Below, piece by piece: positions 11,049 through 35,379 of a stretch of DNA of 35,379 nucleotides (positions are counted from its first letter, which is position 1; every line of letters starts with the position of its first letter). The notes under the pieces were generated by a model, which was not told where the DNA came from, made no database searches, and was given only the letters and a program-made list of their open reading frames with translations. The position numbers and the translations under genes were made by a program. This stretch comes from an uncultured Collinsella sp. (GTDB lineage Bacteria > Actinomycetota > Coriobacteriia > Coriobacteriales > Coriobacteriaceae): the NCBI GenBank assembly GCA_949287065.1, contig CASEEV010000026.1, forward strand, positions 1 to 35,379, given 5' to 3'.

Positions 11049-11121
11049 GGGCGATTGGCGCAACGGTCAGCGCAGGTGCTTTACACGCACAAGGCTGGGG
11101 GTTCGAATCCCTCATCGCCCA
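11049..11121 (+). tRNA. tRNA-Val (anticodon TAC)
   Basis: A full cloverleaf: acceptor GGGCGAT/ATCGCCC, D-stem GCGC/GCGC, anticodon loop TTTACAC (TAC at 11082-11084, reading GUA), T-arm GGGGG-TTCGAAT-CCCTC, discriminator A11121. The top pair of the anticodon stem (G11075/A11091) is mismatched. CCA is not encoded; the next bases are CCC. Its 3' tail is repeated twice further downstream. Confidence 0.95.
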
Positions 11122-11134
11122 CCCATAGACTCGT

Positions 11135-11166
11135 AAATGCCCGGGGCATGCAACCCGGGCATTTTT
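11135..11166 (+). terminator. Terminator hairpin of tRNA-Val
   Basis: AAATGCCCGGG pairs with CCCGGGCATTT and is followed by more T residues. Confidence 0.9.
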
Positions 11167-11314
11167 GTGCCTGTTGCAGGGATTCGAACTCCGTTGGGGG
11201 CGCGAGCGTTAAGCGGATGCGGAGCATCCGTAGCGAGCGCGCGAGGGCGCGGTGTACCCGAGCGGCCGCGCGGCGCAGCCGCGCCGAATCCCTCATCGCC
11301 CACCATAGGTATGC

Positions 11315-11346
11315 AAACGCCCGGACTGCGGTGTCCGGGCGTTTTT
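11315..11346 (+). terminator. Terminator hairpin of second tail module
   Basis: AAACGCCCGGAC pairs with GTCCGGGCGTTT, with TT following. Arm sequences differ from the first module, but the structure is kept. Confidence 0.8.
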
Positions 11347-11458
11347 CGTGCCTGCCCCGGGGGTTCGAACCCCGCTGGGGGCGCGAGCGCGAGGAGCGCC
11401 TGAACGGCCGCGCGGCGCAGCCGCGCCGAATCCCTCATCGCCCACCGCCGAGAGAAGC

Positions 11459-11485
11459 GCCTGGGCCTGTACTGCCCAGGCCTTT
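11459..11485 (+). terminator. Hairpin of third tail module
   Basis: GCCTGGGC pairs with GCCCAGGC around a 7-nt loop, followed by CTTTG. The T run is weaker than in the other two modules. Confidence 0.55.
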
Positions 11486-21082: not shown

Positions 21083-21159
21083 CGGGTTGTGGCTCAGTTT
21101 GGTAGAGCACCGCGTTCGGGACGCGGGGGTCGCTGGTTCAAATCCAGTCAACCCGACCA
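21083..21159 (+). tRNA. tRNA-Pro (anticodon CGG)
   Basis: Acceptor CGGGTTG/CAACCCG, D-stem GCTC/GAGC, anticodon stem CCGCG/CGCGG with loop TTCGGGA (CGG, reading CCG), T-loop TTCAAAT, discriminator A and encoded CCA (21157-21159). Unlike tRNA-Val and tRNA-Thr, its tail is not repeated downstream. Confidence 0.95.
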
Positions 21160-21312: not shown

Positions 21313-21630
21313 TGCGCCAAAAAGAGCACGATACAGATGCTCTGCGCAAAAAGGTTCACGTTACGGGTGGCTTGCGCAGAAAAGGCCACGGTGCGGGTGC
21401 TCCGCGCAAAAGAGGCTGCGATACAGGCGTGCTTCCTCGTCTGTTGTCAAAATAATCAACAAAACAATCAGATACGTAGCACAAATGTGGGCTCACCACG
21501 ACTCATTTTTGCGGTGAAGCGCTTCGGACTTCGGAAGCCGCCCGTATCAAAGCTCTTTTTGCCCGGCATCCCCGTATCACGCATTGTTCTGCGCGGGACA
21601 CCCGTATCGAAGTCGTTTTTGCGCAACAAC
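21313..21630. repeat. 30-bp-period repeat array, four forward and three inverted units
   Basis: Forward units begin at 21313, 21343, 21373 and 21403, exactly 30 bp apart, and start TGCGCAAAAA-like. The third quarter reads CGATACGGGTG-like. The same unit returns on the opposite strand, with CCCGTATC at 21541, 21571 and 21601, again exactly 30 bp apart, each followed by a run of T and GC. A decayed fourth inverted unit may start at 21631. About 110 bp of A+T-richer DNA separates the halves. Copies vary in sequence, but no indel breaks the period. The region from 21211 to 21844 has no convincing gene. Confidence 0.85.
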
Positions 21631-35014: not shown

Positions 35015-35089
35015 GCCAGCGTGGCTCAACGGTAGAGCAAGTGATTTGTAATCACTGGGTTGCGGGTTCGATTCCTGTCGCTGGCTCCA
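35015..35089 (+). tRNA. tRNA-Thr (anticodon TGT)
   Basis: Acceptor GCCAGCG/CGCTGGC, D-stem GCTC/GAGC, anticodon stem AGTGA/TCACT with loop TTTGTAA (TGT, reading ACA), T-loop TTCGATT, discriminator T, and encoded CCA at 35087-35089. Its 3' tail is repeated 185 bp downstream. Confidence 0.95.
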
Positions 35090-35098
35090 GAAACGCTA

Positions 35099-35133
35099 CG
35101 GGCCCGGTCCGATACCAGGACCGGGCCCGTTTC
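35099..35133 (+). terminator. Terminator of tRNA-Thr
   Basis: A perfect 12-bp stem, CGGGCCCGGTCC with GGACCGGGCCCG, 7-nt loop, then TTTC. Confidence 0.85.
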
Positions 35134-35283
35134 TGCATCGCGCCGGAATCGAACACGGTTGCGGGCGCGGAGCTGAGCGAACGCGCGAGCGTTCGCCAGC
35201 GCAGCGCGCAAGGGCCCGGAGGGCCCGCAGCGGGGGCGCGGCGCCAGCCGCGCCGATTCCTGTCGCTGGCTCCAGAAACCCTA

Positions 35284-35318
35284 CGGGCCCGGTCCGATAC
35301 CAGGACCGGGCCCGTTTC
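35284..35318 (+). terminator. Second copy of the tRNA-Thr terminator
   Basis: The same 12-bp stem as at 35099-35133, shifted by exactly 185 bp, again followed by TTTC. Confidence 0.85.
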
Positions 35319-35379
35319 TGCATCGCGCCGGAATCGAACACGGTTGCGGGCGCGGAGCTGAGCGAACGCGCGAGCGTTC

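Follow-up and report, generated by a model that had tools for sequence, protein, structure and literature searches.

The window, a stretch of 35,379 nucleotides, constitutes the entire contig C26 of a 2.08-Mb, 97-contig Coriobacteriaceae genome, G000. Three tRNA genes were detected in it by ARAGORN and Rfam (RF00005): tRNA-Val (TAC; 11049–11123, + strand), tRNA-Pro (CGG; 21083–21159), and tRNA-Thr (TGT; 35015–35089, + strand). Arrays of a hairpin-bearing module lie directly behind tRNA-Val and tRNA-Thr; no module is present behind tRNA-Pro. The order of parts at a locus is tRNA, terminator, the host T-arm in reverse complement, a GC-rich hairpin core of about 90 nt, a copy of the tRNA tail beginning at C56, and a copy of the terminator.

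In the Val array, which lies on the + strand, terminator 1 (11135–11166, a GCCCGGG hairpin followed by a T run, read from the sequence) precedes the inverted T-arm GGGATTCGAACTC (11179–11191), the reverse complement of the Val T-arm. Core 1 (11192–11284; 109.5 bits with covariance model R1, described below) was assigned to type B by alignment and folding and consists of a turn hairpin and three further hairpins, hp1, hp2, and hp3 (11268–11284). It is followed by tail copy 1 (11285–11304), which starts at C56 and is identical to the tRNA 3′ end at 20 of 20 positions. Terminator 2 (11315–11347) keeps the stem with a sequence unlike that of terminator 1. A second inverted T-arm, GGGGTTCGAACCC (11360–11372), then leads into a shortened core 2 (11373–11426, with hp3 at 11410–11426 and 67 nt from arm to tail), tail copy 2 (11427–11446), and terminator 3 (11457–11485, read from the sequence).

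The Thr array, also on the + strand, begins with terminator 1 (35098–35133, read from the sequence) and the inverted T-arm CGGAATCGAACACG (35144–35157). Its core (35158–35253; 87.1 bits with R1) is of type A and comprises the turn, hp1 (loop GCGA), hp2 (loop GGA), and hp3, GCGCGGC-GCCA-GCCGCGC (35236–35253), directly before a tail copy that runs from C56 to CCA (CGATTCCTGTCGCTGGCTCCA; 35254–35274) and is identical to the tRNA at 21 of 21 positions. A terminator copy (35283–35318) follows, and then a second inverted T-arm and the start of a second core (35329–35379), cut by the contig end. The Thr unit is 185 bp long and tandemly repeated, with 99% identity across 126 bases up to the contig end; contig C48 of G000 terminates within the same Thr repeat.

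The sequence-only reading from which this work started had described a plan shared by these two unrelated tRNAs, and the strings it quoted held: GGAATCGAACACGGTTGCGG was found at 35145 and again at 35330, GGGATTCGAACTCCGTTGG at 11179, and GCGCGGC-GCA-GCCGCGC at 11268 and 11410. Its placement of Val hp3 directly before the tail copy was also correct for both copies (tail copies at 11285 and 11427). Two points are corrected or extended here. The repeat exceeds the spacer, being a tandem of tail, terminator, inverted arm, and core; and the arm is the inverted T-arm, longer than a mere 7-mer. Duplication of the terminator was absent from that reading and was added here.

Architecture of the module

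The repeat unit consists of the tail copy (C56 of the T-loop to the 3′ end), the terminator, the inverted T-arm (of the GGGATTCGAACC type), a turn hairpin, and the hairpin core. The turn hairpin is small, for example AACCC-NNNN-GGG, and follows the inverted arm; its 3′ strand is similar in sequence to the 5′ strand of the local tRNA's T-stem, the match being exact in 28 of 127 modules, where other tRNAs would lead one to expect 5.7%. The distance from arm to tail is about 106–114 nt in 16 of the 19 aligned copies of G000, the exceptions being 67 nt, 92 nt, and a compound copy of 176 nt. Truncated copies always retain the tRNA-proximal end. Near-complete palindromes of tail, terminator, and inverted tail were found at L119 and at the tRNA-Val locus of G262.

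Two candidate explanations of this layout were rejected. Convergent tRNA genes sharing a terminator are excluded, since ARAGORN finds no second tRNA and the inverted stretch is mostly 8–15 nt of T-arm. Tandem duplication of a tRNA gene is excluded because the copy starts at C56 of the T-loop and does not comprise a whole tRNA.

Modules behind tRNA and tmRNA genes of the family

A DNA search of G000 gave 17 matches, every one at a tRNA array. When the 700 nt behind each tRNA gene were scanned, a full module was present behind 17 of 45 genes (about 40%): Ala-TGC, Arg-ACG, Gln-TTG, Glu-TTC, Gly-CCC, Gly-TCC, Leu-CAA, Leu-CAG, Leu-TAA, Lys-CTT, Lys-TTT, Phe, Ser-CGA, Ser-GCT, Ser-TGA, Thr-TGT, and Val-TAC. 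Arg-CCG carries the inverted arm and turn only. The shared plan is thus larger than had been claimed for two tRNAs.

Covariance model R1, built from 16 modules, matched 52 of 67 genomes of the family, with up to 23 copies per genome; the other 15 had no match above threshold. This search therefore recovered the further loci that the sequence-only reading had proposed to look for. Named carriers include Collinsella ihumii GD8 (L082) and Candidatus Limicola stercorigallinarum, and carrier genome G060 is one that we take to be Collinsella aerofaciens JCM 10188T (PMC7163011). The fetched loci contained 162 distinct R1 hits, 149 of which have a tRNA or tmRNA gene upstream on the same strand. Most of these (128 of 149) start 45–71 nt behind that gene, and 19 are second units at 231–270 nt. 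The 13 hits without an annotated gene lie mostly at contig ends; the rest comprise a tRNA-Lys that is truncated (L148), a tmRNA that the parser overlooked (L180), a module remnant separated from its tRNA (L064), and chance hits. Modules behind ssrA, the tmRNA gene, were found at L145, L146, and L153.

Among the tRNAs of G000, a module lies behind 1 of 10 with a TTCAA loop and 16 of 35 with a TTCGA loop. A preference for the palindrome TTCGAA is possible, but the difference is not significant in one genome.

The arms match the host tRNA

We compared the tail copies of 127 first-unit modules with 42 different tRNA tails. Over 13 nt, the tail copy had no or one mismatch to its host in 100 of 127 modules, and the module's own host was the uniquely best fit in 109, with 10 ties. 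The 8-nt inverted arm matched the host at 8 or 7 of 8 positions in 120 of 127. Beyond these 8 nt, a run of at least four further bases matched in 17% of modules, compared with about 0.6% for other tRNAs. Individual variants follow their hosts as well: the TTCAA loop of tRNA-Leu(CAG) is accompanied by the module arm GGACTTG, tmRNA modules carry the arms GAGAATCG, and the truncated tRNA-Lys pseudogene of L148, with the variant T-arm GACCCCC, is followed by a module with GGGGTC and GACCCCC.

These results show that the modules exist, lie behind tRNAs, have a common structure, and carry arms matched to the host. The earlier claim that the arms follow the local tRNA was borne out, and "tRNA-tail-adapting elements" is a fair description, supported by both the covariance-model search and the arm comparison. 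The adaptation may stem from copying or recombination and not from a dedicated enzyme.

In G000, a truncated tRNA-Gly lies between tRNA-Gly(CCC) and its module array (C27:4717–5309; L008), and the arms of that array follow the truncated copy (GAGTCCC).

Fold, covariation, and loop type

RNAalifold predicted an outer stem formed by the inverted arm and the tail copy, enclosing the turn and three hairpins. In alignment A1, 93% of cells were paired, and 16 of 34 pairs had changes on both sides. None of 500 shuffles of A1 reached the observed values for pairing, double changes, or covariation, and slid controls were only 30–49% paired. Because the copies share ancestry, neither the covariation nor the loop counts given below represent independent events.

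The tRNA-sense strand is the better folder. For Thr, fold z-scores were −4.7 (+ strand) versus −2.9 (other strand) as DNA, and −5.4 (tRNA-sense strand) versus −3.7 (other strand) as RNA; the tRNA-sense strand was also favored for Val. The loops of the core differ from those of terminators at the same loci, which have to function as RNA. GNA triloops close 136 of 318 core hairpins but none of 117 terminators, and tetraloops of the GNYA and GNRA types occur in a ratio of 36:61 in cores and 1:36 in terminators (nominal Fisher p of 1e-23 and 2e-5, respectively, uncorrected for ancestry). A C-G pair closes 92% of core loops. C-GNA-G and C-GNNA-G loops are extraordinarily stable in DNA, the classic example being d(GCGAAGC). 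This hairpin is among the solved single-stranded DNA hairpins (PMC5430850), and mini-hairpins of its kind have been reviewed (PMC10527192). Since the core loops are of the DNA type and the neighboring terminator loops of the RNA type, the functional or mutagenic form of the module is likely to be single-stranded DNA. This inference is well supported by the loop types, though made without transcript or replication-intermediate data. Loops of the GNRA type make up about a fifth of those in the cores and would suit RNA too. More generally, the chemistry of GNA and GNNA versus GNRA and UUCG loops could tell DNA-level from RNA-level structure in genomes.

The loops bear on one rival explanation, a retro-element, in which a structured RNA attached to the 3′ ends of pre-tRNAs would be reverse transcribed and inserted after the terminator. 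In its favor, the duplicated stretch from C56 to the terminator corresponds to the expected content of a pre-tRNA 3′ fragment, and palindromes of tail, terminator, and inverted tail (L119, L270) resemble self-primed extension of the terminator hairpin. Against it, the core loops are DNA-like and not RNA-like, and no reverse transcriptase (PF00078, RVT_1) was found in G000 or in many other module-bearing genomes, including G001, the complete G061, G077, the module-rich G071, and G076. We therefore consider a retro-element unlikely.

Turnover between close relatives

In the sister genome G001, the core at the orthologous locus is usually the closest to that of G000, and those of Thr, Leu-CAG, and Lys-CTT are identical, indicating that modules persist. 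Other loci differ. The Gln cores of the two genomes score 0.59 with each other against 0.85 with paralogues, and the Gly-CCC core differs in type between them (A versus B). At tRNA-Gly(GCC), G001 has a module and G000 an empty site. At Glu and Phe, the first- and second-position terminators are swapped between the genomes, and at Ser-TGA the first terminator of G000 equals the second of G001, an offset of one unit.

Both persistence and turnover concern a second rival, that the module is a host-beneficial device, either an RNA of the 3′ trailer that influences tRNA maturation or read-through, or a decoy or barrier that shields tRNA genes from integrating elements. Modules are kept across the family at many tRNA genes and ssrA, their structure is maintained by compensatory change, and orthologous cores are mostly conserved between close relatives, all of which speak for this reading. 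However, the module lies behind the terminator and would therefore normally not be transcribed, its presence is patchy (the 15 of 67 genomes without a match above threshold) and varies between close relatives, and truncated copies persist (Arg-CCG in G000, L119, L126, and L133). A host function thus appears improbable.

Wider distribution in Actinomycetota

We used a more general pattern, T-arm GGTTCGANTCC, 50–80 nt, and inverted T-arm GGANTCGAACC, for a wider search. It occurred in 138 of 299 genomes of the order Coriobacteriales, and a reversed control pattern in none of the 299. In a phylum sample that includes family members, 28 of 396 genomes were positive. At the inspected loci of other families (L227–L238, L262, and L266), the parts follow one another in this order and the cores are different. 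Modules were also found in distant classes of Actinomycetota (L253, L254, L257, L258, L259, and L245), behind tRNA-Gln, Met, SeC, Ala, and Glu and one intron-bearing tRNA. Their cores have other conserved hairpins, such as GGGGAAACCTTTGGTTGCCCC, and look more like RNA, having long stems and unpaired stretches that are conserved. The same architecture with other cores is present, at the loci inspected, elsewhere in Coriobacteriales and in other classes of Actinomycetota, the phylum that this search covered. Hits in Chloroflexota, Proteobacteria, and JAKBKY (L071, L080, and L088) were dismissed as chance, there being no tRNA at those sites.

Two tRNA-like T-arm loci, L244 and L245, carry a group I intron (Rfam RF00028, 87–89 bits) together with an inverted T-arm module; ARAGORN misses both tRNAs.

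Chance or an assembly artefact in GC-rich DNA might be suspected, as the window contig ends within a repeat. This possibility is all but excluded by modules in complete and isolate genomes (G060; Collinsella ihumii GD8, L082) and by the empty reversed control.

Comparison with known families and candidate enzymes

In Rfam 15, only the tRNAs of the window match, and the core belongs to no family; at the loci of other lineages, tRNAs and group I introns score above the gathering threshold, none of them on the core. A weak LOOT hit in L244 was rejected because it lies over the group I intron and not the core. BLAST of 50,697 phage and 72,556 plasmid records gave no core match, nor did exact patterns find a core copy in IMG/VR. 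No description of the element was found in the open literature searched, which did not cover a 2017 survey of 224 candidate RNAs.

Every known kind of element that we considered fails on a tested defining feature, and the element is apparently undescribed. REP/BIME sequences with their RAYT transposases are likewise short, noncoding hairpin repeats, chromosomal only and foldable as single-stranded DNA, but REPs are not confined to tRNAs and do not carry a copy of the neighboring gene, and G000 lacks a Y1 transposase. MITEs and other non-autonomous elements are similarly short and noncoding with inverted repeats and a flanking duplication; the inverted ends of the module, however, belong to the host gene and not to a transposon family, and no matching autonomous element was found. 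Integron attC sites and cassettes resemble the module in a folded single strand with an imperfect palindrome, in arrays beside a fixed site, and in turnover of units. The folded + strand of the module has covarying stems and DNA-type loops; its likeness to attC rests on this fold alone, the attC core consensus lying outside the comparison. It differs in lacking an integron integrase (G000) and an open reading frame and in having arms customized to each tRNA, and its recombination site would be the tRNA T-arm. Quasipalindrome template-switch mutations (PMC7202029; PMC8794818) offer a route that makes inverted copies and keeps stems perfect, but we found no earlier link between them and a dispersed, tRNA-restricted element family.

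tRNA 3′ ends are favorite landing sites of mobile DNA. Elements that integrate there, and the CIMEs derived from them, have an att core equal to the tRNA 3′ end and, like the module, leave a duplicated tail behind an intact gene. The module differs in having no genes, a length of about 190 bp, a duplicated terminator, an inverted T-arm, and many tRNA hosts per genome. A third rival holds that the modules are scars of ICE or prophage integration at tRNA 3′ ends, seen as attR tail copies or CIME-like remnants. Tail copies are typical of att cores, and a 210-aa integrase fragment lies at C27:4717, just upstream of the tRNA-Gly(CCC) array. Against this, a homologous structured core of constant length, present at 17 tRNAs together with an inverted T-arm and a duplicate of the terminator, is unlike att scars, no core was found on phages or plasmids, and the shared core by itself already largely refutes the idea, leaving it very improbable.

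None of the tested enzyme classes emerged as the driver. Y1 transposases of the RAYT type (PF01797) are absent from G000 and G001, the richest genomes, and from the module-bearing G071, G077, and G023; IS110/IS1111 DEDD transposases (PF01548) are absent from G000–G003, G071, and G077. G000 has three serine recombinases (PF00239), but these are lacking in G010, which has 11 modules, and in G013, G014, G080, and G027, and a hint of correlation in ten genomes vanished in 67. RAYT, reverse transcriptase, IS110, and serine recombinase were each rejected as drivers on the ground of absence from at least one module-rich genome. The tyrosine recombinases (PF00589) of G000 comprise two full-length proteins, which we take to be the host Xer pair, and the 210-aa fragment; no integron integrase was found next to an array in this genome.

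Proposed mechanism of spread

Since no tested enzyme class is present in all module-rich genomes and no copy turned up in the phage and plasmid records or, by exact pattern, in IMG/VR, we favor spread by host replication and recombination. Hairpin template switching occurs in bacteria and can create and maintain stems (PMC7202029; PMC8794818). Our best explanation is a family of short, non-autonomous repeats that would live solely behind tRNA and tmRNA genes, spreading by template switching or recombination at the conserved T-arm with the arms renewed for each host. When single-stranded, for instance during replication, the tRNA-sense strand would fold through pairing of its inverted T-arm and tail copy. 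At the T-arm, whose TTCGA is common to every tRNA, DNA synthesis would switch template and so copy the core beside a new tRNA. The new host gene would supply the tail, terminator, and arm, because synthesis would begin and finish there. The long direct repeats of tail and terminator may then recombine, so that arrays grow, shrink, and swap units, and hairpin-directed template switching would keep arms and stems complementary. On this explanation, the element is likely a selfish or neutral repeat and not a host regulator.

The mechanism is inferred, no insertion event having been observed, and although it is the best we can offer, the balance tips slightly against its being correct. In its support, units are gained, lost, and swapped between close relatives with no linked gene, and the near-complete palindromes noted above are such as snap-back of a terminator hairpin would make. 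On the other side, template switching alone fails to explain why spread is restricted to tRNA loci, and under it some tails should be mis-adapted, yet such tails are almost absent. The shared ancestry of the copies, the GNRA loops, and the more RNA-like look of cores in distant lineages also weigh against it.

The main rival to template switching is mobility of the integron-cassette kind, which remains possible. Here the folded + strand would mimic the T-arm in double-stranded form, its core bulging out at T54–T55, and a recombinase, either host Xer or one from visiting elements, would exchange strands with the tRNA T-arm at TT/CG, integrating a unit of ~190 nt on the side proximal to the tRNA. 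Integrases commonly target T-arms. The unit, read as CGA-tail, terminator, inverted arm, and core, is the product expected of a circle inserted at TT^CGA; GNA and GNNA loops suggest folded single-stranded DNA; and unit order varies between relatives. Against it, there is no dedicated enzyme: G000 has only the presumed Xer pair and the fragment, without Y1, reverse transcriptase, or IS110, and G010 has its 11 modules without a serine recombinase. The phage, plasmid, and IMG/VR collections hold no copies. Moreover, a unit with the tail of one tRNA inserted in another would alter the latter, so arm adaptation would need an extra step.

Whichever route applies, a bolder reading is that the modules represent an undescribed class of DNA element that parasitizes tRNA genes as a gene class, through a single-stranded DNA fold, a universal landing site in the T-arm, and ends rewritten to match any tRNA or tmRNA host, with a range across Coriobacteriales and, where the cores are unrelated, other classes of Actinomycetota. 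We judge this as likely to be right as wrong. If true, it would be a new way of spreading without harm, in which no specific tRNA is needed, the gene stays intact, and host sequence is adopted, and it would offer a natural system in which to assay how templates are switched at hairpins. Because the modules are present in common gut bacteria, including the genome matching Collinsella aerofaciens JCM 10188T, these ideas are testable in cultured strains.

Variant arrays and neighboring repeats

At L140, L142, and L144, all from Collinsella, up to three modules are interleaved with three tandem tRNA-Arg(ACG) genes, and terminator and tail copies are mixed among the three. A tRNA-Thr(CGT) module of G009 is apparently split inside hairpin 1, with its halves on two contigs (L251 on C26 and L252 on C56), each adjoining unrelated coding sequence; an element may have inserted into it. 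In the second unit of L146, behind ssrA, the tail copy is limited to its first part (CGGATTCTCCGCG) and the hairpin spacer is new, so a complete tRNA tail does not seem to be needed for the unit to repeat. Finally, the region behind tRNA-Pro in the window (21313–21624) contains repeats of about 30 nt of the GCGCAGAAAAGNNCACGATACGGGTGC type on both strands. These also occur behind modules in L006, L007, and L014, often where a module array ends, and form a second REP-like family of G000.
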